Below, piece by piece: positions 1 to 30,027 of a stretch of DNA of 64,000 nucleotides. Under the pieces are notes generated by a model. That model had not been told where the DNA came from and did not search any database. It saw only the letters and a list, made by a program, of their open reading frames with translations. The stretch's first letter is position 1. Each line of letters starts with the position of its first letter. This DNA is from Kiritimatiellia bacterium (GTDB taxonomy: Bacteria > Verrucomicrobiota > Kiritimatiellia > RFP12 > UBA1067). The DNA lies in the NCBI GenBank assembly GCA_017525225.1, contig JAFXTB010000037.1:1-64000 (forward strand). Reading direction: 5' to 3'. Both the position numbers and the translations under genes were made by a program.

Positions 1-5
1 CACAT

Positions 6-80
6 CCACGCAGGACAATGGAATCGCAGGCCGCTTCCGCCTCGGCGGAAGCGGCCGCGATTCCCATTGTCTTGTCGTGA
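6..80. repeat. Long imperfect palindrome upstream of the HipA-like gene
   Basis: Two arms of about 35 nt face each other around position 42. The core arms GGCCGCTTCCGCC and GGCGGAAGCGGCC match almost perfectly, and the flanking parts GACAATGG and CCCATTGTC continue the pairing outward. There is no run of T after it, so it is not a standard intrinsic terminator. It could be a palindromic repeat, the end of an element that starts left of the window, or a structured leader or operator for the kinase gene that starts 66 nt later. Confidence 0.6.
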
Positions 81-145
81 ACCATCAAAGTTATCCTCAT
101 TTACATTCCCGGGCACAGCGCGGGCGGCGGGCTAGCGACTAAATT

Positions 146-1519
146 ATGATACTGAAGCACAGAGACAGGGAACTGTTGCGGTTCGAATGGATTGAACCGC
201 AAGGCGTTCGCGTCCTCTCTGTCAATGAGAGTGAACGTAAGTTCCTTCCGCTTGATATGAAGGGCAAGGCTACGGACGAAGCACTATGGACTTGGCTCGT
301 GCGGCGCACGGTGCCGCGCAACAGGCGGCACATTGAAGAACTGATGGCGCGGATGGGGCTTGATTCTCGCAACACAAGGGGGATAATTGAGCAGTGTCGC
401 GGATTGTCACTCAACGATGTATATTGGGTTGTCCCCAACGGATTCAATGGATCGTGGTCTGACTGCAATCTGTATGACAATCCTTTTTCGGAAGCGGTGT
501 CTCTTGTCGCTTTTTCCGGGGAAGGTCCGGACATGGGGACCGGATGGACATCATCGCCGGAGTTCACCACCAACGGAATGTTGGCCAAATGCTGGCGTCG
601 CAGGAAAGACGGCATTATGCTTTACAAGGCCGGAACTGAGGGAGCATCAAACACGGGATTTGAGCCGTATTCCGAATATTACGCATCGCAAATCGCCGGG
701 GTTCTGGGTTTGAATCATGTTGAATACGGCCTATCGCGATTCAAAGGACGGATATGTTCAACATGCAGATTGTTTACCAGCGACAGATTGGGTTTCATTC
801 CCGTCGGACGGCTTGTTTCCCGTGACGAGGCATTGCGAGATCCGCGTTTCGCCGACATCTTTTTCTTCGATGCGCTGATATTCAACACTGATAGACACAT
901 GGGGAATTTTGGCTATCTTATCGACAACGACACGAATGAGATTATCGGAGCTGCTCCTATTTTCGATAATGGGTATGGCTTGTTCTCTCTTGCGCTTGAC
1001 CGGCCGGGAGATAAGTTTGATGAATTTGGCGACTTGAAGCGATTTGTCGGTCGTGTAAGACCTGCGTTGTATCAGAAGTGGCTTGGATTTCCGGGTGGTA
1101 TTACGAGAGGTATGAAAGAACGACTGTCTGCGTTGAGGGGGTTTAGAATCAAGCGACATCCTAAATATAATCTTGCGTTGCGACGTATCGAAGCCATTGA
1201 AGATTTTCTACAAAAGAGGATTTCGCAAATCTTGGATTTTGGGATGAAAGCAGATGGCTTATTGTTGATACATGAAGAATCGTGCACCGTAAATTCCGCA
1301 TGTCGCGATTTACGGTGCAATCTAACTTCGGATTCGTTATGCGAACAGATAAAACAGAATATGTTGGCCGATCCGTTCATCACGAAGATGGAACTTTCCG
1401 AGTTGCTTCAGGTTTCGCCAAGATGGATTGCCCGCAAGATGAAGGAACTTCAGGCATCCGGGCAGGTCGTTAGACACGGCGCAGCCAAGAACGGCTATTG
1501 GGAGGTGGTTAGTCGTTAG
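146..1519 (+). CDS. HipA/CtkA-like protein kinase with C-terminal winged helix
   Basis: A 457-residue protein with the signature of the HipA/CtkA kinase fold: a Lys in LYKAG (K161) suited to ATP binding, a catalytic loop NTDRHMGNFG (D249, N254), and a metal-binding FDNG (D274). Residues about 410-455 look like a winged helix-turn-helix. Proteins of this fold phosphorylate other proteins or themselves; HipA acts as a persistence toxin. The substrate here is unknown. There is no HipB-like antitoxin gene next to it, and the fused DNA-binding domain may serve for self-control instead. Base composition is AT-richer than the core genes, which fits an acquired gene. No clear Shine-Dalgarno is seen before the ATG. 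The stop codon lies inside a heptamer repeat. Confidence 0.72.
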   Translation: MILKHRDRELLRFEWIEPQGVRVLSVNESERKFLPLDMKGKATDEALWTWLVRRTVPRNRRHIEELMARMGLDSRNTRGIIEQCRGLSLNDVYWVVPNGFNGSWSDCNLYDNPFSEAVSLVAFSGEGPDMGTGWTSSPEFTTNGMLAKCWRRRKDGIMLYKAGTEGASNTGFEPYSEYYASQIAGVLGLNHVEYGLSRFKGRICSTCRLFTSDRLGFIPVGRLVSRDEALRDPRFADIFFFDALIFNTDRHMGNFGYLIDNDTNEIIGAAPIFDNGYGLFSLALDRPGDKFDEFGDLKRFVGRVRPALYQKWLGFPGGITRGMKERLSALRGFRIKRHPKYNLALRRIEAIEDFLQKRISQILDFGMKADGLLLIHEESCTVNSACRDLRCNLTSDSLCEQIKQNMLADPFITKMELSELLQVSPRWIARKMKELQASGQVVRHGAAKNGYWEVVSR

Positions 1520-1541
1520 TTGGTTTCGAGTTTCGGGTGAT
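1507..1541 (+). repeat. Heptamer repeat over the stop codon of the kinase gene
   Basis: Five units of exactly 7 nt: GGTTAGT, CGTTAGT, TGGTTTC, GAGTTTC, GGGTGAT. The TAG at 1517-1519 that ends the kinase reading frame is part of the second unit, so the array supplies the stop. The units resemble those at 6361-6409. Confidence 0.6.
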
Positions 1542-1555
1542 TCGCGGGGTGAAAA

Positions 1556-1659
1556 GGACGGTAGGACTGAAGACAGAGGACTGAGGACTGGGGATTATCC
1601 TTAGTCCTGAGTCTTTTGTCCTTTGTCTTGGGGAAGGAAGGTAGGACAGAAGACAGAAG
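1556..1659. repeat. Palindromic heptamer array before the S23-suffix gene
   Basis: About fifteen units of 7 nt. The left half has GGACGGT, AGGACTG, AAGACAG, AGGACTG, AGGACTG, GGGATTA; the right half turns to the complementary type: TCCTTAG, TCCTGAG, TCTTTTG, TCCTTTG. The middle part can therefore fold as a hairpin centred near 1597. The last units (two of CAGAAGA) run straight into the ATG at 1660. It has the same units and palindromic plan as the array at 2461-2530, on the other side of the gene. Confidence 0.75.
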
Positions 1660-2460
1660 ATGACAGACCGAATGACATTGGAGAATGGTACGCGCGAAGC
1701 GGCAGATCGTTCCCGGATCATCGGGCATTACGGTGGCTATCGAAAGATGTACTCTTTCGGGTTCACATGTCTCGTATATCATGCGACTACTCTTTTCTGT
1801 AAACGTAACTTCAATTACAAAAACGACGCACTCGGTAAGACCGTTGGGCAGATGGTTGGTGCGGCGCGTAGCGCGCGGCAGAACATCGTTGAGGCGTCAT
1901 CGCGGGCGGCGACATCCAAGGAACAGGAACTACGGCAACTTGATGTCGCGAAGGGCTCGCTTGACGAACTGGCTGGCGACTATGAGGTTTTCATTATAGA
2001 TGCTGGCGAGGCTCCATGGTCGCAATCCGATGAACGGTATCGTGCTGTCAGGGATTTGCAGCTTGATGCGTTTAACAAGTCGGAGGATGTTGACCATGAA
2101 TTCGGCAAATACATTTTAGCAATGCGCAAGCGCTGCGCCCGCTGGCTTGAAAATGAAGATCCTATTGTCGCCGCGAATTCAATTCTGATAACTATTCGGC
2201 GTGCGGTTGGACTTCTTAAGGGGCAGATGGACAGAACCGCTGATGCTTTCGTCGAAGAAGGTGGTTTTACGGAACGTATGAGTCGTGCACGGATCAAGGC
2301 GCGAGATGAAAAGGCGAAGAAAGTACAGGAGAAGATGCCAAAGTGTCCAAGGTGCGGTCGGCCACTGCGCAAGATGGTGGCGCGGAAGGGGCGTAACGCA
2401 GGGAATGAGTTTTGGGGCTGCTCTGGTTATCCTGATTGTGACTTTACAAGGAATTTGTAG
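1660..2460 (+). CDS. Four-helix-bundle (S23) protein with suffix domain and zinc ribbon
   Basis: A 266-residue protein. Residues about 25-180 form an S23/four-helix-bundle region (MVGAARSARQNIVEAS followed by SKEQELRQLDVAKGSLDEL). The C-terminus has four Cys in a zinc ribbon of the topoisomerase C4 type (CPRCGRPL then WGCSGYPDC). This matches the family known as 'four helix bundle suffix domain' proteins. S23 proteins were first noted in intervening sequences of 23S rRNA, and the DGR accessory protein Avd has the same fold; both are thought to bind nucleic acid. The activity here is unknown. The gene is bracketed by two palindromic heptamer arrays that touch its start and its stop. The start is uncertain: the first 20 residues look non-conserved, so a later start is possible. 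Confidence 0.8.
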   Translation: MTDRMTLENGTREAADRSRIIGHYGGYRKMYSFGFTCLVYHATTLFCKRNFNYKNDALGKTVGQMVGAARSARQNIVEASSRAATSKEQELRQLDVAKGSLDELAGDYEVFIIDAGEAPWSQSDERYRAVRDLQLDAFNKSEDVDHEFGKYILAMRKRCARWLENEDPIVAANSILITIRRAVGLLKGQMDRTADAFVEEGGFTERMSRARIKARDEKAKKVQEKMPKCPRCGRPLRKMVARKGRNAGNEFWGCSGYPDCDFTRNL

Positions 2461-2530
2461 GATAGAGGACGGAGGACGGAGGACAGAGGACGGAGGATTG
2501 TCCTTAGTCCTTCGTCCTTCGTCCTCTGTC
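2461..2530. repeat. Palindromic heptamer array directly after the S23-suffix gene
   Basis: Ten units of exactly 7 nt start at the base after the stop codon: GATAGAG, GACGGAG twice, GACAGAG, GACGGAG, GATTGTC, CTTAGTC, CTTCGTC twice, CTCTGTC. The first half pairs with the second to give a hairpin with arms of about 31 nt around 2498. It shares units with the array at 1556-1659. A partial copy (GTCCTCTGTCC) recurs at 4729, on the far side of the IS. Confidence 0.78.
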
Positions 2531-2590
2531 CCACGGCGTTTTCAGATAGGCAGATGAGAGTCAATCAGTGATTTGATTTCTGCCCCCCGC

Positions 2591-2619
2591 TTGACAAATC
2601 GGAGTTTTTTTGAGACAAT
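2591..2619 (+). promoter_or_regulatory. Transposase promoter TTGACA-N17-GACAAT
   Basis: A perfect -35 box at 2591-2596, a 17-nt spacer and a -10 box with four of six matches at 2614-2619. Transcription would begin near 2626, just past the 5' arm of the hairpin at 2618-2659. Confidence 0.55.
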
Positions 2620-2659
2620 ATACTCGCCGCGCCATATGGCGGGCAAGGAGCGAGTATAT
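2618..2659 (+). promoter_or_regulatory. Hairpin that pairs the transposase start codon
   Basis: ATATACTCG (2618-2626) is the exact complement of CGAGTATAT (2651-2659), and CGCC/GGCG around an ATAT loop forms an inner stem. The Shine-Dalgarno AAGGAG (2645-2650) and the first bases of the ATG fall inside. A transcript from the internal promoter would lack the 5' arm, while read-through transcripts from outside would carry it and mask the start. IS10 and IS50 are known to limit read-through expression in this way; for this element it is inference. Confidence 0.6.
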
Positions 2660-4001
2660 GCTTAGAGTCAGGCAGTGCATGATAGGCGAGACCGCGTGGT
2701 TCCGCAGGCTGGAGGGCGAATACCACTACATGGGCGAGTCCCATGGTGCGGGGGACGTTGTGCGCCTCGTGTTCGAGGAGGACGGCGTGCCGGTGGCGCT
2801 GATGACGTGGGCGGCGGCGTGCTACTGCCTCAAGGCGCGCGACGAGCGGATCGGGTGGAACCCGGCGATGCGCGCGGCGAGGCTGAAGCTGGTGGTCAAC
2901 AACCGCAGGTACACGGAGCTCGTGCCGAAGGGCGCGCGGCCGAACCTCGCCTCGCGGGTGCTGGGGATGGCCGTCCGTGAGCTTCCCGCGATATGGGAGC
3001 GGCAGTGGGGGTACAGGCCGCTGCTGGCGGAGACGTTCTGCGACATCGAGCGGACGGCGGGCACGTGCTACCGCGCGGCGGGGTGGGAGGAGGTCGGCAG
3101 GACCAAGGGGTTCTCGCGCGTGAACCACGCGAGGGACTTCTACATCCCCAACGGCAGGCCGAAGGTCCTGTTCATGAAGCCGTTCAGGAGGGACGCGTGG
3201 GAGCTGATAACGAGGAACGCCCTGCCGGACGAGTACGACGTGGCGGCGCACTCGAAGGCGGACGGCGTGCTGCCGTTCCCGCCAAAGGCCGTCGAGAGCC
3301 TGCACTGGGAGCTGTGCCAGGTCAAGGATCCCCGCAGCCGGAACAAGTCGATCGGCATCGGCGCGATCCTCGCGGTCTTCACGATGGCGGTCGCGGCGGG
3401 CGCGAAGGACCTGAAGGAGGCGCATGCGTTCGCGAAGAGGCTCACGAACGCGCAGCTGAAGGAGCTGGGATGCCCGAAGAGGAAGGATGTGCTAGGCAAC
3501 GTCGTCGAGGGCGAGTGCGCCTGCCCCAGCTACAACGCGCTCTACCATCTGCTCAGGCACAGGGACAGGGCGGGGCGGTACGACTTCGACGTGGCGGACT
3601 ACGCCGCGCACCTCTCGAAGTGGACGACGGCGCAGGCCGGGAGGCTGCCGCGCCATCTCGCGGCGGACGGCAAGTTCGTGGACGAGGTCGTCGGGCTCGT
3701 GTCGGTCGTGGACGCGGAGAGCGGCGAGGTGGTCGCGGTCGCGCCCGCCTCGAAGAAGGAGGGGCTGAAGGGGCGCTGCGAGTACCCCGTCCTGCGCGAC
3801 ACGCTCGCGGGCATGGACCTCTCCGGCGCGGTCGTCAGCACGGACGCGCTGAGCTGCCAGGACGACACCGCGCACACGGTGCTCGCCAACGGCGGCGACT
3901 ACGTCCTCCAGGTGAAGGCCAACCAGAAGGGGCTGCTGGAACAGTGCGGGGAGCTGACCCGCATCCGTCCCCTCGTCGGCTCCCTTAAAAAAAAGAGCTG
4001 A
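2658..4001 (+). CDS. Transposase part A: DruA-like DUF4338 domain plus ISAs1 N-terminal half
   Basis: The start is the ATG at 2658 because AAGGAG lies 7 nt before it. Residues about 5-165 match DUF4338, the domain of the Druantia protein DruA (IGWNPAMRAARL, NLASRVLG, TFCDIERTAGTCYRAAGWEEVG). From about 205 the sequence changes to the ISAs1-type helper domain (VKDPRSRNKSIGIGAILAVF) and the first part of a DDE catalytic domain (ADGKFVDEVVGLVSVVDA, STDALSCQDDTAHTVL, GGDYVLQVKANQ). The frame ends after 447 residues at a TGA just past eight A bases, leaving out the catalytic Glu. Part B lies in the -1 frame. I infer that a frameshift product of about 609 residues is the active transposase. The unshifted product would hold the DUF4338 domain and might act as an inhibitor. 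Confidence 0.78.
   Translation: MLRVRQCMIGETAWFRRLEGEYHYMGESHGAGDVVRLVFEEDGVPVALMTWAAACYCLKARDERIGWNPAMRAARLKLVVNNRRYTELVPKGARPNLASRVLGMAVRELPAIWERQWGYRPLLAETFCDIERTAGTCYRAAGWEEVGRTKGFSRVNHARDFYIPNGRPKVLFMKPFRRDAWELITRNALPDEYDVAAHSKADGVLPFPPKAVESLHWELCQVKDPRSRNKSIGIGAILAVFTMAVAAGAKDLKEAHAFAKRLTNAQLKELGCPKRKDVLGNVVEGECACPSYNALYHLLRHRDRAGRYDFDVADYAAHLSKWTTAQAGRLPRHLAADGKFVDEVVGLVSVVDAESGEVVAVAPASKKEGLKGRCEYPVLRDTLAGMDLSGAVVSTDALSCQDDTAHTVLANGGDYVLQVKANQKGLLEQCGELTRIRPLVGSLKKKS
3989..3995 (+). promoter_or_regulatory. Slippery heptamer A-AAA-AAG for -1 frameshifting
   Basis: Codons of part A run AAA AAA AAG AGC TGA, so the heptamer lies in the correct phase. After a -1 slip the next codon is GAG and the frame continues into part B. 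The same heptamer serves dnaX and many IS3-type elements. A GC-rich stretch that can fold weakly follows within about 15 nt. A sequencing or assembly indel in the A run is the alternative. Confidence 0.65.
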
Positions 4002-4486
4002 ACCGGGGGCGGCTTGAGATCCGCGAGACGAAGGTGTTCCGCGTCCAGGACGCGGTTGAGGCCGGCTTCCCCGGCACCCGGACGATCATCCGAACGTACC
4101 GCGAGGTCTGGCAGACGCGGAAGACGGGGAAGAAGGACAGGTGCGGGCGCGACATTCGCAAGCCCTTCGGCAGGCCGACGAAAGAGGTCGCCTGGCACGT
4201 TTCGTCGCTCGACCCCGACTCGCGGAGCGCGGAGCAGTTCGCGGAGATCGTGAGGACGCACTGGTACGTCGAGGCGTACCACGGCAAGCGCGACAACGGC
4301 TACCACGAGGACGACTTCTCGCGGCGGTGCGACCGGAACGTGATGTCGGCGATGATGGTGGCGCGATCGTTCGGGATGTGGATATGCGCACGGCATCCCG
4401 AAAGGACTACGGCGCAGGTGAAGGACGACCTGAACCGCCATCCGGCGAAGCTTGTGCGAATCATGATGAAAGGCGGACTGCAATGA
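3995..4486 (+). CDS. Transposase part B: C-terminal catalytic segment of ISAs1-type DDE transposase
   Basis: Read in the -1 frame from the slippery site; 163 residues follow the shift. The segment gives the ISAs1-type end of the catalytic domain: WHVSSLDPDSRSAEQFAEIV, then RTHWYVEAYHGKRDNGYHED, which supplies the HW and Glu motif near the third acidic residue, and a helical tail. An ATG at 4034 could start a separate protein, but it has no good ribosome site and would cut into the domain, so fusion through frameshifting is preferred. The gene is otherwise intact, which suggests recent activity. Confidence 0.7.
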   Translation, partial: ELNRGRLEIRETKVFRVQDAVEAGFPGTRTIIRTYREVWQTRKTGKKDRCGRDIRKPFGRPTKEVAWHVSSLDPDSRSAEQFAEIVRTHWYVEAYHGKRDNGYHEDDFSRRCDRNVMSAMMVARSFGMWICARHPERTTAQVKDDLNRHPAKLVRIMMKGGLQ

Positions 4487-4507
4487 CGTAGCGCGGAGCA
4501 GCTTTTG

Positions 4508-4586
4508 GCGGCCAGCGGCTTCGGCATGCCCCGAGGCCCGGGCTGCCATGCTCGCGGAGTGTCCCGACGGGTCTCCGCGCCATGGC
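4508..4586. other. Pair of strong stem-loops behind the transposase
   Basis: The 396 bases between 4487 and 4882 hold no gene. They begin with two hairpins: one built on GGC-TCGG and CCGA-GCC (about 4516-4540), and a second from 4545 to 4586 with GCCATG/CATGGC outside, GCGGAG/CTCCGC inside and CCCG/CGGG at the tip. A further GCCCT/AGGGC pair sits at about 4632-4663. There is no T run. They may be subterminal IS structure. The rest of the gap has the direct repeat at 4729 and the next promoter. Confidence 0.5.
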
Positions 4587-4748
4587 TGGCGGGCGTCGAG
4601 GGCGCTGACGGGACGGGATTGCGGGCAAGGTGCCCTTTCACGGACCCTCGGGCTGGCAGGGCAATGGTTTTTCAGCAAAACTCTAGGCTGGAGACAGAAA
4701 GAAGCTATCAGCCAAATGAGAACACCATGTCCTCTGTCCTACGAATTA

Positions 4749-4777
4749 TTGTCATCGGTTGGGGAATGTGGTAAAAT
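4749..4777 (+). promoter_or_regulatory. Promoter TTGTCA-N17-TAAAAT
   Basis: The -35 box is at 4749-4754, the spacer is exactly 17 nt and the -10 box is at 4772-4777. It drives the membrane protein gene at 4883 with a leader of about 100 nt. Confidence 0.65.
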
Positions 4778-4882
4778 AACGGGCGAAATGAAAAGCGACA
4801 ATAGATTCATTTTGCAAAGACAATAGAGGTTCCCCTTTCGGATGGCCGTACCCTCTTAACAACGGCTTAGTTAGGTTAAAGC

Positions 4883-6376
4883 ATGTTCAAAAACAAATTC
4901 CATAAGGATGTATTTAAGGCGCTGGTTGTCATCTGCGCCATTCTTGGGCTTTGCCGTTTGACAATGGGTGGTGTGGCGGTGCTGATAGCGCTTCTGGGGG
5001 CAGGTTTCGCCCTTACAAGAAAGCCAGGCTACCTTGCCTGCTGCTACATAATGTTCCCGTTCTTTACCATCTTCAACCGTGTGGTGGTGGGGCTTAGCCC
5101 AGTATTCCTGATGACTGCGCGCCTCGGCAACCTATTTATGATTGCGGCCATGATACTTACGGGGGCAGGGTTTGCGGGGCGGGCACGGGAGAAACTTCCC
5201 ATTGGCTGGCTTTTCGCCTATTGCGTGGTAGCCTGCATCTCTTCTATCGATGGGTGGATGCCGCTTATCAGCTACTTGAAGATCGCTCAGTTTATACTAT
5301 TCCTTATGGGTTTAATCTTTGTGACGCGACTTCTGCAACAGTCTGCCGAAGGTCCCTACCAGTTACGGTGTGTTTTCATGGCCTTATCCATCATTGTCCT
5401 TTGGGGGTCGATTCTCTCACGATTCATACCTTCAGTTGGATATTCGATGACGATAAGCAGCCTTGCTGCCTACGGCATTGAAATGACGGGTGCGGAAGTC
5501 GCTGCAAGCGAGGGGATGCGGCTTTTCAACGGAGTTACATGCCATAGCCAGATGCTTGCACCGACGGTTGCTCTTATGTCGGCCTGGTTGCTCTGCGACA
5601 TGCTGCTCGTTGAACGCAGATTCACCATTCTGCATGTGTCCATACTCGCAGCTGCACCGGTTCTTCTCTATATCTCGCGCTCACGAGGAGGGCTTCTGGA
5701 AATTGTTGCGGTGATGTTGACGACCATTTTCGTATGCGTGCCGAGGGCAAGGTTGGCTTTGGCCGTCAAAAGCCGGTTGATGCAACTATTGATATTGTCT
5801 GCAATCTTGCTTCTTGCGATTGCCGTAATCGGGCAGATCAGGAACCAGACGATTTCCAAGTGGTTGCGCAAGACAGATGATGTTAGAGGAGATACTCGGA
5901 CGCTCAAGGAGGCATTCACAGGTAGTCGCCAGGGTCTAGTTGAATACAACTTGAGCGACTTCAAATTGAATCCGCTCTTTGGGAAGGGGTTCCAGGTGAT
6001 GCGCGGGATGGAGCAGGCGTACAGGGCGAAATTGATTACATGGTATTCCGCCTCGGTTGAGAAAGGTGTAACGCCATACGTGATTCTGGGCGAGACGGGG
6101 TTGGTGGGGGCTAGTGTGTTCCTAATCTTCCTGTGTTCGTTCTATGGCACCTGCCTTAAACGTCGATACCTTGCGACGCTTACCATCTTCACTTGCGTAA
6201 TGGTAGCAAATCTTGCCGACTCGTCTTTGTTTTCACCTGGCGGTGGCGGTGGGTTTGGCTGGATCATTTCTTGTATCGGTGGCTTTGGAATTGATATAAT
6301 GGCGCTTAGGCAAGTGCAGGGCGCGGGCGCTCAGCGCTTCGCGCGATTTGATGATTTGAGAGTTTCTAGTTTCTAG
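4883..6376 (+). CDS. O-antigen ligase / Wzy-like polytopic membrane protein
   Basis: A 497-residue protein with about eleven hydrophobic segments over residues 10-470 and a long hydrophilic loop at roughly 315-385 (QGLVEYNLSDFKLNPLFGKG). This is the plan of the O-antigen ligase/polymerase superfamily (WaaL, Wzy): the periplasmic loop of such proteins usually carries the sugar-transfer site, and 'NPLFGKGF' resembles its typical GxGxG-like motif. It probably joins or polymerises surface glycan, but no other glycan-assembly genes are nearby. GC content is lower than in the metabolic genes downstream. The last residues (RVSSF) and the TAG are encoded by a heptamer array, so the natural C-terminus may have been replaced. 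Confidence 0.7.
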   Translation: MFKNKFHKDVFKALVVICAILGLCRLTMGGVAVLIALLGAGFALTRKPGYLACCYIMFPFFTIFNRVVVGLSPVFLMTARLGNLFMIAAMILTGAGFAGRAREKLPIGWLFAYCVVACISSIDGWMPLISYLKIAQFILFLMGLIFVTRLLQQSAEGPYQLRCVFMALSIIVLWGSILSRFIPSVGYSMTISSLAAYGIEMTGAEVAASEGMRLFNGVTCHSQMLAPTVALMSAWLLCDMLLVERRFTILHVSILAAAPVLLYISRSRGGLLEIVAVMLTTIFVCVPRARLALAVKSRLMQLLILSAILLLAIAVIGQIRNQTISKWLRKTDDVRGDTRTLKEAFTGSRQGLVEYNLSDFKLNPLFGKGFQVMRGMEQAYRAKLITWYSASVEKGVTPYVILGETGLVGASVFLIFLCSFYGTCLKRRYLATLTIFTCVMVANLADSSLFSPGGGGGFGWIISCIGGFGIDIMALRQVQGAGAQRFARFDDLRVSSF

Positions 6377-6409
6377 TTTCTGGTTTCTGGTTGGTAGTTG
6401 GTTTCTGGA
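6361..6409 (+). repeat. Heptamer array at the end of the O-antigen ligase-like gene
   Basis: Seven units of 7 nt: AGTTTCT three times, GGTTTCT, GGTTGGT, AGTTGGT, TTCTGGA. A 26-nt stretch (6362-6387) is the exact reverse complement of 29976-30001, more than 23 kb away. Just upstream, 6316-6345 also has an imperfect GC-rich hairpin inside the coding sequence. Confidence 0.72.
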
Positions 6410-6416
6410 TAGCTGA

Positions 6417-6445
6417 TTTACGCCACATCCGTTTTGTGCTATAAT
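6417..6445 (+). promoter_or_regulatory. nagA promoter with TATAAT -10 box
   Basis: TATAAT at 6440-6445 with a 17-nt spacer from a weak -35 box TTTACG (6417-6422). The leader of about 18 nt holds a strong AAGGAGG (6456-6462) 7 nt before the ATG at 6470. Confidence 0.6.
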
Positions 6446-6469
6446 GTCCGCAACCAAGGAGGCAACGAA

Positions 6470-7621
6470 ATGAAAACGCTTATCGTCAACGCTCATGTAA
6501 TCAGCCCTGATGTAGACATCAAGGGCGCGTCCATCGAAATCGTCGGTGGGAAGATCAAATCCGTGTCCAAGGGCAAGGTGGATCGCAAGGGATTCGACAC
6601 CGTGGTGGACGTGAAGGGCAAGTACGTGGTGCCCGGATTCATCGACGTGCATCTGCATGGCGCGTGCGGTTTCGATGTGTGCGACGCCACGCCCGAGGCC
6701 ATCGCGAAGATCGCCGAGGCCAAGCTTGCCGAAGGCTGCACCTCCTTCCTGCCCACCACGCTCACCGTGGCGAACTCCACGCTGAAGAAGGCGGCGAGGG
6801 CCGTGGCGGCGTATCGCAAGGACGAACGGTTCGCCAAGGTGATCGGCATCCATCTCGAAGGCCCGTTCATCAACGTGAAGTGCTGCGGCGCGCAGAATCC
6901 CAAGTTCGTCCGCAAGCCCAATCTCAAGGAAGTGCTCGGCATCGACGCCATCTCGCCCGTCAAGCTCATATCCTACGCGCCCGAGACGAAGGGCGGCGCT
7001 GAGTTCGCCGCGGCCTGCATCGCCAAGGGGATCGTCCCCAGTTGCGGCCACACGGGCGCCACGTTCGCGGAGCTGATGGCCGCGTACGGCAAGGGCCTCA
7101 GGCACCTGACGCACTTCTGCAACCAGATGACGAAGCTGCACCATCGCGAGATCGGCGTTGTGGGCGCGGGCTTCCTCGTGGACGATCTCAAGACCGAGGT
7201 CATCTGCGACCGCATCCACCTCTGCGACGACATGCTGAGGCTCGTGTTCACGAAGCGTCCGCTCTCCAGCATCCAGATGATCACGGATTCCCTGCGCTGC
7301 TCCCATTGCGAGGACGGCTATGCCTTCGAGATGGGCGGCCTCAAGGTGCAGCTCAAGAACGGCGAGGCGCGCCTCGTGGAAGGCGGCAACCTCGCCGGCT
7401 CCACTCTTTGGATGAGCCAGGGGCTCAAGAACATCCGCGACGTGACGGGGCTGCCGCTCAAGGACCTGATCCGCGTGACGTCCTGGAACCAGGCGATCGA
7501 GCTTGGCCTCGGCAAGAAGCTCGGCAAGGTGGAGAAGGGCTATGTGGCCGATCTCGCCGTTCTCGACCCCAAGACGTTCAAGGCCTGCGCCGTGTTCGTG
7601 GACGGCGTGCAGAAGATCTGA
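6470..7621 (+). CDS. nagA: N-acetylglucosamine-6-phosphate deacetylase
   Basis: A 383-residue amidohydrolase that removes the acetyl group of GlcNAc-6-phosphate, the step before NagB. Visible family motifs are the metal-site HLHG (in PGFIDVHLHGACGFD), HLEGPF with the metal-binding Glu, CGHTGAT, the HLTHFCNQMTKLHHRE stretch that stands for the usual NAM-x-x-x-HHR, and ITDSL, where the catalytic Asp of the usual TDAM sits. The start is set by AAGGAGG. The partner nagB is about 20 kb further on, in its own operon, so the two genes are not co-transcribed. The downstream lyase-like gene begins 26 nt after the stop and may share the transcript. Confidence 0.93.
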   Translation: MKTLIVNAHVISPDVDIKGASIEIVGGKIKSVSKGKVDRKGFDTVVDVKGKYVVPGFIDVHLHGACGFDVCDATPEAIAKIAEAKLAEGCTSFLPTTLTVANSTLKKAARAVAAYRKDERFAKVIGIHLEGPFINVKCCGAQNPKFVRKPNLKEVLGIDAISPVKLISYAPETKGGAEFAAACIAKGIVPSCGHTGATFAELMAAYGKGLRHLTHFCNQMTKLHHREIGVVGAGFLVDDLKTEVICDRIHLCDDMLRLVFTKRPLSSIQMITDSLRCSHCEDGYAFEMGGLKVQLKNGEARLVEGGNLAGSTLWMSQGLKNIRDVTGLPLKDLIRVTSWNQAIELGLGKKLGKVEKGYVADLAVLDPKTFKACAVFVDGVQKI

Positions 7622-7647
7622 CGACCCTTCATTGAAAGAGGTGCTTC

Positions 7648-10600
7648 ATGAGATTGGCGGCAATTGCGGTTTTCGGCGCAGGGCTGTGTGCCTGCGCGCC
7701 AGCGGGCGCCGATGCGCCCAGCGATGCGTCGTGGGCGCGTCCGGACCTTGTGGCGAAGGTCGAGTCGGGCGAGCTGCGCGAGGCGAACGTGTCGTGGTGG
7801 GGATGGGACCGCGAGGATTCCACTCGCTTCATCTCCGCCGCGCTCGCATCGAAGGCGGCGAAGGTGACGCTTGACCGTCAGGAGGGGCCGTGGACGACCC
7901 TGCCGCTCGCGGGGCGCTCCAGCCTGGAGCTTGTAATCCCTGAAGGCGTTACGCTGCTTGCGAAGCGTGGTGCCTTCCACGGCAAGAGCGACAACCTTCT
8001 CAGGTTCATGTGCGCCACCAACGTGGCGATCAACGGCGGCGGCACGCTGAGGATGTGGCTGGAGGACTATACCAACAGGAATCTCTACGCCTGGAGCGAG
8101 TGGCGGCATGCGATATCGCTGCTGGGCTGCAGCAACGTGCGCATTGAGAACCTGACGGTGGAGAATTCCGGCGGCGACGGGCTCTATCTCGGCCGCCGCA
8201 CGCCCGATTCGAACGTCGGCGTGACGGTCCGCGACGTCAGGTTCATCCGCAACAACCGCCAGGGCGTGAGCGTGATCACGGCCGACGGTCTGCTCATGGA
8301 GCGCTGCACGATGGCCGATACATGCGGTACTCCGCCGATGGCGGGCATCGACTTCGAGCCCAATGGCCCGGCGGACATGCTGCGCGGCATCGTCCTGCGC
8401 GACTGCGTGGTGCGCGGCAACCGCGGCGCCGGCTTTGACTTCTCCATCGGCAACCTGCGGGTGTCGTCGCCGGATATCTCGATAACCCTGGAGAACTGCC
8501 GCAGCGAGGGCAATGTGAAGCCTGTCCACTTCCATAGGTGCTTCGATCTCCTTGAAAGGTACGCCGGGCAGATCGAGATGCGCGGCTGCACGTTCAACGA
8601 CATCGGCGACAGCCGTGCGGCCCTCCTTGGAAAGTGCGAGGAGGATACGTGCGGGCTTACGCTTACCGGATGCAGCGCGGCCGACCCATCGCAGGGTGGC
8701 GCGATCCTGCCGCTCGGTGAAGGATTCGGCTGGAAGCGCGTGATGCGTCCGAAATGGCCCGACAATTCGCCGATACGCCCCGTGCCGTGGCGGGCGGAGG
8801 AACTTGAACGCTCCAAGGTGTTCGATTCGGCGCCGGGCCGTCCTGTGAAGTTGCCGAAGGCGTACTTCCGCGGAGATACGGACTTCCTCGTGTACGCCGC
8901 CGACCAGGGCGCCGTCAACCTCAAGGCGAGGCTTGCCCACGTGGGTAGCCGGAAATTCGCCTCCTGCCAGATCTGCGTGTTCGCTCCCGATGGTTCGAAG
9001 ATGGCGGAGATCCCGGGGCCGGACGCGTTCGGCAAGGTGTTTCCCGTCTCCTTCCAGGCCGCCAAGCGCGGGTTCCATCGCCTGTCCATCAAGGTAGGCA
9101 ACGACCATGCGATCTCGTTCTGCGAGACCGATGCTCCGATCGCGGCCGTGCCGACGCCCGATGAACGCATGCCCGGGCTGGATCGCGGTCCGGCCGAGGT
9201 GTACCTGCGCATTCCGGACAACCAGTGGCGCTTCGCCGTGCTGGCCACGGGTGGCGGCCCGGGCGAGCTGCTGCATGTCCGGCTGACCGATCCTTCCGGC
9301 GCATGCGTGTGGGACCAGGACAACGTCGGCCCTACGCGGGCCTGGTTCTCGAAGCGCCCGCCGGCCGCCGGGGTCTGGCGGCTTGAGTCTCTCGTGGCGA
9401 CGAAGGCCGGCATGGACGACTATTCGTTCTGCGTGTCAGACCTGCCTCCATTCTTCTTCCTCTCGCCGGAGAAGACCTGGACGCTGGGCGTGGCCACGGC
9501 CGTCCCGCCGCCGCGAGCAAAGCCGCTTGCTGCGGATGCCGCGTACAAGACCCCCGAGACATCCAGCCTCTTCGTGCGGCACCAGGATCCAAAGAGCGGA
9601 GTAGTATCGTATCTGCTTAAGCCGGGGCTGGTGGCCGAGACGCAGCAGGGCTGGTATTTCACCAACCGGTCCATGACCGACGACGGCCGGTTCCTCCTCT
9701 TCTGGACGGCGCGCAACGAATTCACGCATCCTGGGCAGGAGCGCAACCGCGGTCCCGCCGGCGCCAACTGCGGTAGTGGGCTGGTGGATTTCAAGACGGA
9801 CACCGCCATCGACCTCAAGCTGCCGCGCAGCTGCCAGTATCTCGACTACAAGACGGGCCAGATGTGGTACATCCGCTTCGGCTCGCCCGACGACCACGAG
9901 ACCGACGCGGTCGTTCGGCGCGACCTCTTCGTGGATCCGATGAAGGAGATAGTGGAATGCCCCATACCACGCGAGCTTGTGCACGGCATCAAGCAGTTCA
10001 AGTGCTATTCCACCCACATGACACTCACGAAGAACCGGCGCAAGGCGTTCGTGACGTGCCAGCTCGCCAACCGCTACGAGCAGGGATACATCAACTTCGA
10101 CACGGGCCGCTGGGAAAGCTGGGGCGTGACGCCGTTCTACGCCAACCACGACCAGATATGCCCGGCGGACGACAATCTTGCCATGGTGGCATGGGAGCAT
10201 TGCTGGTACACGCCTGACGCCCTCGAATACCAGCGCAAGAACCACTGGTATCCGCGCATGTGGCTGGTCCGTCCGGATGGCTGGCGCGAGTTGCAGCCCT
10301 CGCGCCTGGGCAATGGCGCCACGCACGAGCGCTGGGCCGACGACGGATCGGGCTTCTACTGGTGCATCTGCCGCGAGAGGTACGGGGTCGCGTACCAGGA
10401 TCTCGCCACGGGTCGACAGGAGATCGTGTGTCCGCAGAAGGCATCGCATGCGTCGATGTCGTCCGACAAGCGCTATGTCTGCTACGACTATTGCTTCCCG
10501 GTGCCAGGGAACAAAACTGGATCTGGCAATGCGTTCATGGTGGGCTTCTGGAATCGCGACACCGAGCGTTTCGCCACGATCCACTCCTTTATGCCGCTGA

Positions 10601-10761
10601 TAGGTCGTCCGGGCGTGAAGTCCGTGCTGCACCCGCATTGTCATCCGTCGTTCGTCTGTGGCGACAAGTACGTCCTTTGCACATACAGCAACGATGACGG
10701 CCATATGGATCTGTCGCTTACGCCGGTGGCGCAGTTGCTTGAAAAGACGAAGAAGGATTGA
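7648..10761 (+). CDS. Secreted beta-helix protein with C-terminal propeller (lyase candidate)
   Basis: A 1037-residue exported protein. Residues 1-23 form a signal peptide ending in ADA or in a poor lipobox (GLCAC). Residues about 60-330 have the repeats of a right-handed parallel beta-helix (NVAINGGG, NVRIENLTVENSGGDGLYLG, NRQGVSVITADGLLMERC), as in pectate lyases and GH28-type enzymes. About 350-620 are beta-rich with no clear family. The last 400 residues contain propeller-like strands and His-rich stretches (STHMTLTKNRRKAFVTC, YANHDQICPADD, HPHCHPSF) that recall oligogalacturonate lyase (PL22). Pectin-type polysaccharide cleavage is plausible but not shown. It follows nagA at 26 nt. A short palindromic element begins 4 nt after its stop. 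Confidence 0.6.
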   Translation: MRLAAIAVFGAGLCACAPAGADAPSDASWARPDLVAKVESGELREANVSWWGWDREDSTRFISAALASKAAKVTLDRQEGPWTTLPLAGRSSLELVIPEGVTLLAKRGAFHGKSDNLLRFMCATNVAINGGGTLRMWLEDYTNRNLYAWSEWRHAISLLGCSNVRIENLTVENSGGDGLYLGRRTPDSNVGVTVRDVRFIRNNRQGVSVITADGLLMERCTMADTCGTPPMAGIDFEPNGPADMLRGIVLRDCVVRGNRGAGFDFSIGNLRVSSPDISITLENCRSEGNVKPVHFHRCFDLLERYAGQIEMRGCTFNDIGDSRAALLGKCEEDTCGLTLTGCSAADPSQGGAILPLGEGFGWKRVMRPKWPDNSPIRPVPWRAEELERSKVFDSAPGRPVKLPKAYFRGDTDFLVYAADQGAVNLKARLAHVGSRKFASCQICVFAPDGSKMAEIPGPDAFGKVFPVSFQAAKRGFHRLSIKVGNDHAISFCETDAPIAAVPTPDERMPGLDRGPAEVYLRIPDNQWRFAVLATGGGPGELLHVRLTDPSGACVWDQDNVGPTRAWFSKRPPAAGVWRLESLVATKAGMDDYSFCVSDLPPFFFLSPEKTWTLGVATAVPPPRAKPLAADAAYKTPETSSLFVRHQDPKSGVVSYLLKPGLVAETQQGWYFTNRSMTDDGRFLLFWTARNEFTHPGQERNRGPAGANCGSGLVDFKTDTAIDLKLPRSCQYLDYKTGQMWYIRFGSPDDHETDAVVRRDLFVDPMKEIVECPIPRELVHGIKQFKCYSTHMTLTKNRRKAFVTCQLANRYEQGYINFDTGRWESWGVTPFYANHDQICPADDNLAMVAWEHCWYTPDALEYQRKNHWYPRMWLVRPDGWRELQPSRLGNGATHERWADDGSGFYWCICRERYGVAYQDLATGRQEIVCPQKASHASMSSDKRYVCYDYCFPVPGNKTGSGNAFMVGFWNRDTERFATIHSFMPLIGRPGVKSVLHPHCHPSFVCGDKYVLCTYSNDDGHMDLSLTPVAQLLEKTKKD

Positions 10762-10764
10762 TCG

Positions 10765-10788
10765 TAGGGCCGACGCGATGCGTCGGCA
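10765..10788 (-). repeat. Short palindromic element, CCTAC-tailed type
   Basis: Read on the minus strand: an 8-bp stem GCCGACGC/GCGTCGGC, a 3-nt loop and the tail CCCTAC. It has the same layout as the coding elements at 36000, 38230 and 38668. Here it lies between genes, just after a stop codon and just before a heptamer array. Confidence 0.6.
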
Positions 10789-10793
10789 ATGTC

Positions 10794-10884
10794 CAACAGC
10801 CAGCAATCAACAACCAACAGCCAACAATTAGCAATCAGCAATCAACAGCTAGCAATCAACAACCAACAGCCTACAGCCAGCAAC
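10794..10884 (+). repeat. Thirteen-unit heptamer array before the second S23 gene
   Basis: Thirteen units in perfect 7-nt register, nearly all of the form (C/T)A(A/G)CA(A/G)(C/T): CAACAGC, CAGCAAT, CAACAAC, CAACAGC, CAACAAT, TAGCAAT, CAGCAAT and so on. It ends 13 nt before the ATG of the S23 gene. Its units are the reverse complement of those at 11350-11511 on the other side of the gene. Confidence 0.82.
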
Positions 10885-10897
10885 GAACCGCTAATTC

Positions 10898-11278
10898 ATG
10901 AAAGTGCAAGACAGGATGCAAGAAGGTGGAAGGCCAAGCGACCTCGGCGCAAGGACGGTTGACTATGGCCTTGCGGTGATGAAGCTCTGCGGGATGTTTC
11001 CGCCGGGGTTCGCGGCAAAGCATATCGCAGGCCAACTCGTCCGTTCCGCGACGAGTGTCGCCGCAAACTATGCGGAGGCGACGGACGCCGAGAGCCGCGA
11101 GGACTTCATCCACAAGATGAAGGTCGCGCTAAAGGAGTTGAAGGAGTCACGCGTCTGGCTCATGTTCGCTTCGCGGCTGCCTGGCAGCCCTGACACGGCC
11201 TGGCTGTTGTCCGAATCCCGCGAGCTGACGTTGATTTTCGGTAAAAGCGTGAATACCGCATCTCAGGGACGCGAATAG
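10898..11278 (+). CDS. Four-helix-bundle (S23) protein
   Basis: A 126-residue protein with the S23 family pattern: LGARTVDYGLAVMKLC, then the hallmark QLVRSATSVAANYAEATDAES followed by FIHKMKVALKELKESRVWL. The family size is about 115-130 residues, so it is complete. S23 proteins are known from intervening sequences of 23S rRNA and from many bacterial chromosomes; they form pentameric barrels, and the related Avd binds nucleic acid in DGRs. There is no reverse transcriptase or rRNA here. The gene lies between two heptamer arrays in opposite orientation, which suggests a repeat-gene unit. No strong ribosome-binding site is seen before the ATG. Confidence 0.85.
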   Translation: MKVQDRMQEGGRPSDLGARTVDYGLAVMKLCGMFPPGFAAKHIAGQLVRSATSVAANYAEATDAESREDFIHKMKVALKELKESRVWLMFASRLPGSPDTAWLLSESRELTLIFGKSVNTASQGRE

Positions 11279-11349
11279 CCTGCGCGGAGCGACGCCGCGG
11301 CAAATGGAAGGAATCGGGCGCGGTATCAACCGCGCCACGACCATGCGGT

Positions 11350-11511
11350 GTTGACTGCTGGTTGCTGGCTGTTGGTTGTTGGACATTTTCTATTGAGGCG
11401 GTGTTGGTTGCTGGCTGTTGGCTGCTGGTTGTTGGACATTTTCTATTGAGGCGGCGTTGGTTGTTGGTTGTTGGCTGTTGGTTGTTGGCTGTTGTTTGTT
11501 GGTTGTTGTTT
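11350..11511 (+). repeat. Three-block heptamer array after the second S23 gene
   Basis: Blocks of 7-nt units (GTTGGTT, GCTGGCT, GCTGGTT, GTTGGCT) are split by two identical 16-nt inserts, ATTTTCTATTGAGGCG, at 11385-11400 and 11438-11453; these make a 53-bp tandem period. The third block has eight units without an insert. The units complement the array at 10794-10884. The rest of the 348-base gap between 11279 and 11626 contains only the next promoter. Confidence 0.82.
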
Positions 11512-11521
11512 CGATTGATTA

Positions 11522-11550
11522 TTGCGTTTTGGGGGAAGGTGGCGTATAAT
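11522..11550 (+). promoter_or_regulatory. Aldolase promoter TTGCGT-N17-TATAAT
   Basis: The -35 box is at 11522-11527 and the perfect -10 box at 11545-11550, with a spacer of 17 nt. The leader of about 70 nt ends with AAAAGG six nt before the ATG at 11627. Confidence 0.7.
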
Positions 11551-11626
11551 ATACGCCCGTTTCCAAACAAGAACCCCGGATGCCGATGGCCGGCCACGGC
11601 CAAAGGCGTCCAACAAAAGGAAAAAC

Positions 11627-12634
11627 ATGAAGAAAGTCAGCTACAAGGCGCTCGGACTCGTCAACACGAAGAAGATGTTCGCGAAGGCGATCAAGGGCGG
11701 ATATGCGGTTCCCGCGTTCAACTTCAACACGATGGAGCAGATGCAGGCCATCGTCCAGGCGGCGGTCGAGACGAAGAGCCCCGTGATCATGCAGGTCTCG
11801 AAGGGTGCGCGCAAGTATGCGAACCCCACGATCCTCCGCTACATGGCCCAGGGCGCCGTGGAATACGCCAAGGAGCTCGGCTGCAAGAAGCCCGAGATCG
11901 TGCTGCATCTCGACCATGGCGACAGCTTCGAGACGTGCAAGAGCTGCATCGACAGCGGCTTCTCCTCTGTGATGATCGACGGCTCCTCGCTGCCGTTCAA
12001 GGACAACATCAAGCTCACGAAGAAGGTTGTAGCCTACGCGCACAAGTATGATGTGACGGTCGAGGCCGAGCTGGGCGTGCTTGCCGGCGTGGAGGACGAG
12101 GTGGCCGCCGAAGAGAGCCATTACACCAAGCCCGAGGAGGTCATCGAGTTCGCCACCAAGACCGGCTGCGACTCGCTCGCCATCTCGATCGGCACCTCGC
12201 ACGGCGCCTACAAGTTCAAGCCCGAGCAGTGCACGCGCGATCCCAAGACGGGCAAGCTCGTGCCGCCGCCCCTGGCGTTCGACGTGCTCAGGGCCATCGA
12301 GAAGAAGCTGCCCGGCTTCCCGATCGTGCTGCACGGCTCGTCCAGCGTCCCGCAGGACGAGGTGGATACCATCAACAAGTACGGCGGCAAGCTGCCCGAC
12401 GCGGTGGGCATCCCCGAGGAGCAGCTGCGCAAGGCGGCCAAGAGCGCGGTGTGCAAGATCAACATCGATTCCGATTCGCGCCTCGCGATGACGGCCGCCA
12501 TCCGCAAGCACCTCGCGGAGAACCCCGGCCACTTCGATCCGCGCCAGTATCTAACGCCGGCGCGCGAAAACATGAAGAAGCTCTACATCCACAAGATCGT
12601 GAAGGTGCTGGGCTCCAACGGCAAGCTGGGCTGA
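11627..12634 (+). CDS. fba: Class II fructose-bisphosphate aldolase
   Basis: A 335-residue zinc aldolase that splits fructose-1,6-bisphosphate into two triose phosphates in glycolysis, or joins them in gluconeogenesis. Signature regions are VPAFNFNTMEQMQAIVQA, VLHLDHGDSFETCKSC (zinc His and catalytic Asp), VEAELGVLAGVED, GTSHGAYKF, the phosphate site VLHGSSSVP, and KINIDSDSRLAMT. The start is the ATG after AAAAGG. It has its own promoter and stands alone, as expected for a housekeeping gene; the next gene starts 30 nt downstream and may be read through. Confidence 0.95.
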   Translation: MKKVSYKALGLVNTKKMFAKAIKGGYAVPAFNFNTMEQMQAIVQAAVETKSPVIMQVSKGARKYANPTILRYMAQGAVEYAKELGCKKPEIVLHLDHGDSFETCKSCIDSGFSSVMIDGSSLPFKDNIKLTKKVVAYAHKYDVTVEAELGVLAGVEDEVAAEESHYTKPEEVIEFATKTGCDSLAISIGTSHGAYKFKPEQCTRDPKTGKLVPPPLAFDVLRAIEKKLPGFPIVLHGSSSVPQDEVDTINKYGGKLPDAVGIPEEQLRKAAKSAVCKINIDSDSRLAMTAAIRKHLAENPGHFDPRQYLTPARENMKKLYIHKIVKVLGSNGKLG

Positions 12635-12664
12635 GCGCGCCGCATACAGGAAAGGCAGGGGCGT

Positions 12665-14587
12665 ATGAGGAAGGCAGTCATGCTTGCTGCGGTGCTAGCC
12701 GCGGCAAGCGCATGGGCGGTAATGCCCGCAATGGTGAAGATCGACGGAGACTACTCCCTCGAAAAGTTCAAGCGCAGGACCTTCGTGTACACCGACCGCG
12801 GCTACCGTCTCGAGGAGCCGCCGAAGATGTTCCTTGAGCGTCCGTTCATGCGCACGAAGATCGACGGCTTCACCTGCACGGTGGCCGCGCCCGGAGAGTT
12901 GATCTTCCTCACGCCCGCCGCTGGTGGGCCCTCGCCCTGCTCGCAGGACGAGGCCCTGAAGAAGTACGGCTTCGAGCTGATGACCGATCCCGGCGAGTTC
13001 CAGCTGTTCGGCACGGAACCGTACAACCGTGTGCGCGCCTGGCGGAAGATGGCGAAGAAGGGCGAAACGTTCAAGTTCGGCAAGTTCGCCTGCGTGCTTG
13101 CCACGGAGTACCGTCCGGTCCCTGACGAGCCTGTCAACATCGACGTTGGCCGGCAGCTCTTCCTCGACGACAGCCTCCTTTGCGAGATGACGATGAAGCG
13201 CCAGTGGATCGAGCCGACGATCGATCCGCGCTCGCCCGTCCTCAAGCCCGAGACGGAGCTCGAGAGGACCAACAACACGAAGGATCCCAACTGGAATGCC
13301 ATGTCGGCGCCGTTCTCCGGCGGTGTGTGGTACGACGGCAAGGACAAGCTCTACAAGTGCTGGTATCTCGCCGGCTGGGCGAACGGCATCGCGTACGCCA
13401 CATCGAAGGATGGCATCAAGTGGGATCGTCCCGATCTCGATGGCAAGGGCAACAACCTCACCTTCCGCACGCGCGGGCTGTGCGACTCCAACGCGATCCT
13501 TCTGGATCCCGACTGCACCGACGGTTACCGCTGGAAGGGGTTCGCGTTCGACCTCGGGCGCGGACCGACGCCCGACCGCCGCCTGATGGGCGCGAGCGTC
13601 GCAGTGTCGAAGGACGGCATCCACTGGACGACGCCCGAACCCGCCTCCCAGACGGGAGACTGCTCGACCGCGTTCTACAATCCGTTCATCCGCAAATGGG
13701 TGTATTCCATACGCTCCGGCATGATGGAGGGCGGCCTTTCGTTCGGCCGCTGGCGCGACTATGCGGAAGGCGACGACTTCATCAAGGACGCCAAGAACAT
13801 GAAGCGCCGCAGGTGGCGCCTCAGAGGTTCCGCGGGCGGCAGGCAGATCAACGGCCAGGAGCTCTACAACTTCGACGCCGTAGCGTACGAATCGGTGATG
13901 ATCGGCCTCGCGCTCGTCTACAATTCGCCGCAGAACACGTATTGGGACAAGCGCGGGCTTCCCAAGATCGCCGATCTCAAGTTCGGTTTCAACACGATGC
14001 CTTCCGAATACGACAACTGGCAGTTCCCGTGGGTGAATCCGCACGACGGCTTCTTCCTCTCCGGCACGCGCAAGTACGGCGACTGGAACATGGGCTACCT
14101 AAGATCCAACTCGGCCATCTGCATCGTGCACGGCGACGAGCTATGGATATACTTCTCGGCCTTCGCCGGCCAGCCCGACAAGCCGAAGGAGTTCAACCAC
14201 GTGAACCAGAAAAGCGGAACGTACGCGAACGCCACGATGGGCATAGCGAAGCTGCGCCGCGACGGCTTCTGCTCGCTGTCGGACGGCATGGTGAAGACCA
14301 AGAGGCTCTTCTTCAAGAAGAAGGGCGACCGCCTCTGGATCAACGCCGACGTCAGCGCCGGCGAACTCAAGGTGGAATCCTCCACGGGGCTTTCCAGGAC
14401 GTTCAAGGGCGTCGACTCGACCCGCATGGAGGTGGGGGCTCTTGCGGCCAACCAGGAGTTCACGCTCACTTTCACGGCTAGCGGCGGCGCGAAGCTCTAT
14501 TCGTTCTGGGCTTCCGACGCGAAGGGCCGCTCCGGCGGATATCTCGCGGGCGGCAGCCCGGAAAGCGATACATTGCGCGACCTCTGA
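12665..14587 (+). CDS. Secreted GH32/GH43-like five-bladed propeller protein
   Basis: A 640-residue protein with a clean signal peptide (RKAVMLAAVLAAASAWA). Residues about 155-520 show propeller blades with the motifs common to GH32/GH43/GH68-like folds in PVC bacteria: IDVGRQLFLDDSLL, YDGKDKLYKCWYL, AYATSKDGIKWDRP, SVAVSKDGIHWT and a late NATMGIAKLRRDGFCSL. The C-terminal 90 residues look like a beta-sandwich (ELKVESSTG). Such proteins are usually called 'glycosyl hydrolase family 32 N-terminal domain' proteins, but the substrate is unknown and I do not identify the catalytic acids with certainty. Its 3' end meets rpsU through a shared terminator. Confidence 0.65.
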   Translation: MRKAVMLAAVLAAASAWAVMPAMVKIDGDYSLEKFKRRTFVYTDRGYRLEEPPKMFLERPFMRTKIDGFTCTVAAPGELIFLTPAAGGPSPCSQDEALKKYGFELMTDPGEFQLFGTEPYNRVRAWRKMAKKGETFKFGKFACVLATEYRPVPDEPVNIDVGRQLFLDDSLLCEMTMKRQWIEPTIDPRSPVLKPETELERTNNTKDPNWNAMSAPFSGGVWYDGKDKLYKCWYLAGWANGIAYATSKDGIKWDRPDLDGKGNNLTFRTRGLCDSNAILLDPDCTDGYRWKGFAFDLGRGPTPDRRLMGASVAVSKDGIHWTTPEPASQTGDCSTAFYNPFIRKWVYSIRSGMMEGGLSFGRWRDYAEGDDFIKDAKNMKRRRWRLRGSAGGRQINGQELYNFDAVAYESVMIGLALVYNSPQNTYWDKRGLPKIADLKFGFNTMPSEYDNWQFPWVNPHDGFFLSGTRKYGDWNMGYLRSNSAICIVHGDELWIYFSAFAGQPDKPKEFNHVNQKSGTYANATMGIAKLRRDGFCSLSDGMVKTKRLFFKKKGDRLWINADVSAGELKVESSTGLSRTFKGVDSTRMEVGALAANQEFTLTFTASGGAKLYSFWASDAKGRSGGYLAGGSPESDTLRDL

Positions 14588-29953: not shown

Positions 29954-29975
29954 CAGGCCAGTCAATTCCAACCCC

Positions 29976-30010: not shown

Positions 30011-30027
30011 AACCTGGAACTACAACC

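Follow-up and report, generated by a model that had tools for sequence, protein, structure and literature searches.

S23-family genes of bacteria and some archaea lie between inverted arrays of 7- to 9-nt repeats, suggesting an overlooked small mobile element

Introduction

S23 has long been known just as an odd insert in ribosomal RNA, and its family (PF05635), which is widespread and obscure in its role, took its name from that habitat. An analogy to the elements described below is offered by REPIN/RAYT, in which short palindromic repeats are spread with the help of a linked gene; RAYT is a tyrosine transposase, whereas S23 has no known catalytic domain. In Coxiella, the intervening sequence (IVS) of the 23S rRNA has terminal inverted repeats and an S23 ORF and is excised by RNase III, and three tandem heptamers (GACAGAT), variable among strains, lie right before the S23 start codon (PMC4990558). 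The same paper recalls an older idea in which the IVS is mobile and its ORF serves mobility, and describes the S23 of Xanthomonas as a homopentamer (PMC4990558).

Cyanobacterial STRRs are 7-nt tandem arrays that form hairpins and whose function is unexplained (PMC2670836), TAACTGA heptamers have been described in Beggiatoaceae with S23 unmentioned (PMC4679880), and Rickettsia palindromic elements (RPE) are palindromic inserts found in frame inside protein genes (PMC10969869). No statement of a general association between S23 genes and arrays was found in the open-access literature.

The window analysed here, a 64,000-nt stretch of a Kiritimatiellia genome assembly (4.2 Mb in total), contains two S23 genes. 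The original prediction held that both are framed by 7-nt arrays of different unit families, and that S23, through a fold shared with the DGR protein Avd, may recognise, copy or spread its own array as part of an undescribed system. The elements share with the 23S rRNA IVS of Leptospira and Coxiella the PF05635 family and a small ORF placed in the loop of complementary terminal arms. They differ from it in lying between genes or within protein genes, in having repeat arrays as both arms, in using units specific to each element, and in occurring also as S23-less copies.

Two S23 genes framed by repeat arrays

The S23-suffix gene (1660–2460, forward strand, like the plain S23 gene and the arrays described below; 266 aa) encodes an S23 four-helix-bundle core with a weak PF05635 match (25.0, under the cut-off of 33.8), a TIGR04258 suffix (49.7, cut-off 40) and a C-terminal topoisomerase-type zinc ribbon (Zn_ribbon_Top1), and also exceeded the TIGR02436 cut-off (25.3 against 24). 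Its 5' array (about 1560–1632) is a palindrome of G-rich heptamers of the AGGACTG type, a loop and their C-rich complement, with an RNA fold z of -4.6. Its 3' array (about 2462–2531), made of GAGGACG heptamers, a loop and the GTCCTTC complement, begins 2 nt past the stop codon and forms a near-perfect hairpin of ~31 bp (z -9.6).

The plain S23 gene (10898–11278, 126 aa) scored above both cut-offs, with 51.2 bits for PF05635 (cut-off 33.8) and 72.4 for TIGR02436 (cut-off 24). It is preceded by 13 heptamers of the CAACARY family (10794–10887) and followed by an array of the GTTGGYT family (11347–11508). This 3' array mirrors the 5' one in reverse complement and includes a 53-nt higher-order repeat present 2.7 times. 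The RNA of positions 10785–11520 was predicted to fold into a single long stem with the S23 ORF in its loop (z -10.4, equalled by 0 of 20 shuffles). The predicted framing of both genes was thus borne out, as palindromes at 1560 and 2462 and as an inverted pair at 10794 and 11347, and so was the difference in unit family (AGGACTG/GAGGACG versus CAACARY/GTTGGYT).

Period-7 scores of the window arrays ranged from 21 to 25 out of 28, against a best score of 21 and a mean of 18 over 100 local shuffles of the whole window, and the array at 1560 taken alone would be borderline. Positions 1–13000 gave no Rfam match, so neither S23 element lies in an rRNA gene. Both S23 proteins matched only S23-type, TIGR04258 and zinc-ribbon models, no Y1 tyrosine transposase match being found among them, and neither had a match in PADLOC.

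Five PF05635 matches were found in the genome to which the window belongs, and short tandem arrays bordered all five. Units measured 7 nt at the two window genes, 8 nt at L002, and 9 nt at L001 and L004; therefore "element-specific 7- to 9-nt unit" is the right description rather than "heptamer" alone, and the exact 7-nt register claimed at the outset applies to the two window genes and not to the other three. Heptamer arrays also occur apart from S23 genes, and counts of arrays in this genome cover the window. Two of them are single-arm orphans, one of the AGTTTCT family at the 3' end of ORF 4883–6376 (6347–6411) and one of its complement type, GAAACCA (29963–30020); they belong to one family, lie 23 kb apart, and neither has a stable fold of its own. 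A third, of the AAATTGA family (38437–38510), runs in frame within an 877-codon ORF (38053–40683) that by eye resembles a glycoside hydrolase family 2 enzyme.

The surroundings of the S23-suffix element include, directly upstream, a HipA-C-like protein with PADLOC PDC-M03A candidate-defence matches (146–1519). An ISAs1-type transposase with an N-terminal DruA domain lies at 2610–4486, broken at a run of eight A (about 3985–3993) with its remainder (4034–4486) in another frame, which could be a frameshift or programmed slippage.

Enrichment of arrays beside S23 genes across phyla

Arrays were strongly concentrated beside S23 genes. In a survey of 157 S23 genes from many phyla, with an array called at a period-7 score of at least 20/28, arrays were present in 114 of 310 adjacent 150-nt flanks (37%), versus 93 of 3145 bins (3%) in the distal parts of the same loci. 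None of 46 ParE gene flanks reached this threshold. In 400 kb of the related genome G083, only 1 of 2660 bins scored at least 20/28, though the S23 genes of this genome lie in arrays; heptamers as a general feature of the genome were thereby ruled out for G083.

In the phylum of the window, PF05635 was present in 100 of 145 genomes. Among 78 distinct S23 genes, period 7 was the best of periods 5 to 12 at the 5' side of 51 genes and at the 3' side of 39, compared with 7 and 13, respectively, of 79 control ORFs (Fisher 4e-14 and 9e-6), and most of the S23 flanks with another best period had period 8 or 9. This comparison in relatives had been set as a test of the original prediction and did not refute it. 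The 5' and 3' flanks of 36% of S23 genes had a complementarity score of at least 20, as against 4% for controls and 0.5% when flanks of different S23 genes were paired.

Beyond this phylum, named genomes were scanned and gave 80 S23 loci from about 20 phyla, archaea included. Period 7 was best in 58 of 76 5' flanks and 47 of 76 3' flanks, and arm complementarity of at least 15 was found in 64%, versus 2% for mismatched pairs. The signal was very local: of the 100-nt bins closest to the gene, 53% and 41% carried it, and past 200 nt about 2% did. No rRNA match was found in 80 S23 loci. A protein-array unit exists, is near-universal for PF05635 and stands well over control genes.

Phages hardly carried S23 (1 of 50,697 records), while it was found in 42 plasmid records, cyanobacterial for the most part. 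The cyanobacterial plasmid genes bear arrays like STRRs (GGGAGTA/TCCCTAC, GGGAACA/TGTTCCC), and the flanks of L376, L377, L378, L380 and L381 reached period-7 scores of 21–28/28 on at least one side; the difference is that STRRs were described without an associated gene, whereas the arrays here are tied to a protein family. In a type I-D CRISPR operon on the Anabaena sp. 90 plasmid pANA02 (L377), the S23 element separates cas6 from cas4, and on the Nostoc plasmid pNe_5 (L376) it lies antisense between two ribonucleotide reductase subunit genes.

The proposed link to Avd held for the fold and not for the arrays. S23 and Avd belong to the same four-helix-bundle superfamily, and the Avd model NF033474 scored weakly on many S23 genes; however, the three true DGR Avd genes above its threshold, a small sample, had arrays in none of their six flanks, and no match over the cut-off was found in the window's genome. 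Inverted short repeats also frame genes of GxxExxY (PF13366, PDDEXK_3; loci L326–L355, with L348 in the window's genome), with complementarity of at least 15 in 62% of 26. This protein is unrelated, its CACAGAG/CACGGAG-like repeats are common to different elements, and their period is not sharply 7. GxxExxY is possibly a second family of gene-in-array elements, which suggests a wider class in which inverted arms of short repeats enclose a small gene, S23 being one branch of it.

Mirrored arms and their possible role in RNA

The 3' array repeated the 5' array in reverse complement, with units that changed from gene to gene. The 5' unit of an element agreed with its own reverse-complemented 3' unit at 5.7 of 7 bases, compared with 3.6 of 7 when elements were crossed (p 2e-17), and in 20 of 44 elements the order of units was mirrored more closely than in shuffled orders (p<=0.05). 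Arms were also polar, 92 elements having a G-rich 5' and a C-rich 3' array and 7 the reverse; the plain S23 element of the window, with its C-rich 5' array, breaks this rule. Unit similarity followed S23 protein similarity weakly (rho 0.12), so that the suggested match between array unit and S23 clade amounted to a weak correlation, and unit-clade specificity was set aside. Phyla were scattered over the S23 tree (34 label changes, minimum 18), which is poorly resolved.

Elements occupy intergenic gaps, often right against the next start codon. The downstream gene was co-directional with S23 somewhat above background (76% versus 68%, p=0.02) and the upstream gene was at background level; strict operon co-orientation, initially suspected, had no support against this background.

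These features bear on a regulatory reading without mobility, in which the transcript folds and S23, encoded in the loop, binds its own stem and thereby controls its own expression or the stability or processing of a neighbouring mRNA. The strong predicted folds in the window (z -10.4 for the plain element, -4.6 and -9.6 for the two hairpins), the excision of the Coxiella IVS by RNase III at such a stem (PMC4990558) and the downstream co-direction would all fit it. A conserved RNA stem should, contrary to what was obtained, favour G-U pairs over A-C mismatches: the arms contained 84 and 101 of these, respectively (p=0.24), and 905 and 1012 under a loose alignment. Selection for an RNA stem left no signal in G-U tolerance, and therefore conservation of the arms as RNA stem was without support. 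The background-level upstream orientation also speaks against regulation of this kind, which moreover leaves the site turnover and mini-elements described below unexplained, and it is considered unlikely.

Elements embedded in coding sequences

Eleven elements, a small number, lie within host ORFs that run on across the full element without a stop; the host frame was +2 relative to S23 in every case. Of 81 S23 genes in the phylum set, 7 had frame +2 open, versus 0.6 expected from synonymous shuffling; six of these are in-gene elements with a continuous host, and the seventh is L035, in which the host halves are in different frames. The hosts were PglX, DrmMI, Type IIG and Type III methyltransferases and one mfd, so that DNA methyltransferases, mostly of phage-defence systems, host 10 of the 11, a choice that looks non-random.

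Alignment of pglX genes displayed uninterrupted copies in G119 (1175 codons) and G101 (1194 codons), one S23 element in G083 (1328 codons) and two in G055 (1522 codons), with S23-less in-frame arrays at further sites. One insertion site was common to G055 and G083, which belong to two Verrucomicrobiota genera, and an element in a Clostridia bin occupied seemingly the same site, as judged by eye from flanking residues. At L120 (G048:C33), two pglX half-matches lie about 6.6 kb apart on the contig, which suggests that this pglX carries a further large insertion besides its S23 element.

For in-gene copies, dN/dS was 0.11–0.15 in the S23 frame, where computable, and 1.2–2.2 in the host frame. A host frame that is open and unconserved speaks for the element being translated along with its host and against its splicing out, as far as codon patterns can tell. 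A spliced intron or split gene was rejected as the general reading of in-gene elements, the host ORF being continuous and stop-free, L035 excepted. The palindromic insert read in frame within pglX and the other hosts is a feature shared with RPEs; these are ~150 bp long and have neither S23 gene nor heptamer arrays, while some of the in-frame inserts here hold a complete second gene in another frame.

Type III toxin-antitoxin systems have a small gene with tandem repeats immediately before it, a layout similar to that of the arrays here, and the tandem-repeat RNA could by the same token neutralise the adjacent small protein. This is highly improbable for S23: arrays stand on both sides and are inverted, the unit has merely 7–9 nt, elements survive inside host ORFs, and PADLOC had matched neither S23 protein.

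Presence and absence at orthologous sites

Orthologous intergenic sites were compared within one genus (g32, family f23). At site 2, six loci (L281–L286) were empty and without array, while L276, L278 and L295 carried one S23 element with TTAACAG-type arms (with an in-frame stop in L295), L277 a decayed copy, L293 and L294 a different S23 element with different arms, and L280 an S23-less heptamer mini-element. At site 1, L287 carried an S23 element and L288 a remnant lacking S23, with a suffix-S23-family mini-element of 9-nt unit nested inside it; L289, L291 and L292 were decayed. Comparison of sites yielded no target rule and no clear target-site duplication between empty and filled orthologous sites, for an element without transposase.

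This turnover also bears on whether the arrays came first, arising by slippage or otherwise, with S23 landing or persisting in them. S23-less arrays do occur in the window and in relatives, and repeat copy number varies among Coxiella strains (PMC4990558). The empty state of site 2 nevertheless has no array, the arms are mirrored in unit order, polar and element-specific, unlike random arrays, and arrays are almost absent from 400 kb of G083, yet the S23 genes of G083 lie in them. An origin of the arrays before S23 is already disfavoured and appears quite unlikely.

The 9-nt unit of the suffix-type S23 of genus g32, GTCCATNNN, had 6–30 matches in the seven counted genomes with that S23, 3 in the sister genome G024, which has no S23 match, and mostly 0–4 elsewhere; the co-occurrence of mini-elements and S23 concerns one clade and one S23-free sister genome, uncorrected for kinship. 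In G005, 9 matches were on one strand. Many matches formed intergenic hairpins, with a run on the minus strand followed by one on the plus strand within about 100 nt, and non-autonomous copies would be expected to look like this. A search with five flank pairs for clean empty sites of the mini-elements met variable gaps and no clear case. The claim that S23 spreads its own array gained circumstantial backing, mini-elements with the local suffix-S23 unit being dispersed in genomes with that S23 and at background numbers in the S23-free sister.

S23 was under purifying selection in all comparisons except one (dN/dS 0.03–0.15), the exception being a near-identical pair and uninformative. Such selection would also fit a host function. 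As a domesticated protein, S23 could be a regulator that binds the nucleoid or repeats, with the arrays as operators scattered over the genome; the presence of unit-matched arrays at other places in the genome and the DNA-binding zinc-ribbon tail of the suffix form point the same way. Against it, S23 copy number is very variable, the gene is pseudogenised or absent in sister genomes, and each S23 has its own unit, with no single genome-wide operator. Domestication is accordingly regarded as very unlikely.

A candidate mobile element

The reading that we favour, with a probability of roughly 0.6, is that the S23 gene and its two arms of 7- to 9-nt repeats form one small mobile element (~450–550 nt) of the IVS kind. 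S23 probably recognises its own repeats: the protein would bind, as a pentamer, the units in its own arms, and five chains set opposite a row of units make an attractive picture of such binding. The solved homologues 2GSC and 2RLD have five chains each. Movement or copying of the element would depend on S23, and S23-less mini-elements may be moved in trans. No nuclease or transposase domain can be recognised in S23, and therefore a host enzyme likely does the chemistry and takes part in movement. The element would be tolerated where an extra loop of RNA or protein does little harm, and the 23S rRNA IVS would be the same element sited in an rRNA helix. Heptamers also precede the S23 start codon in the Coxiella IVS, so that the rRNA IVS seems to be a special case of the S23-array class.

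A broader version is tentative and, in our judgement, less likely than not. In it, S23 proteins would drive a widespread class of mobile elements, so far undescribed, whose members recognise, copy and spread their own element-specific 7- to 9-nt arrays. Much of the heptamer content of bacterial genomes that lacks an explanation, STRRs included, would derive from them, and they would be able to enter protein genes as stop-free inserts carrying a gene in a second frame.

The observation behind the original prediction is real and general, and its interpretation is partly supported. As to novelty, no description of the general class was found, whereas heptamers before the S23 of the Coxiella IVS were known (PMC4990558); the finding seems to extend the rRNA IVS to a class without prior description.

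Implications for the S23 family

The packaging of S23 genes between mirror-image arrays of 7–9 letters across bacteria and some archaea suggests an overlooked small mobile element, and with it an origin for repeats that had lacked an explanation for decades. The in-gene elements offer a natural example of double coding, S23 being conserved while the same bases leave the host frame open, and phage-defence methyltransferases may hold such inserts unnoticed. The finding yields direct predictions on binding, expression and insertion. If gene and arrays are one element, the role of S23, the existence of the rRNA IVS and the origin of heptamers such as STRRs would become one testable question.
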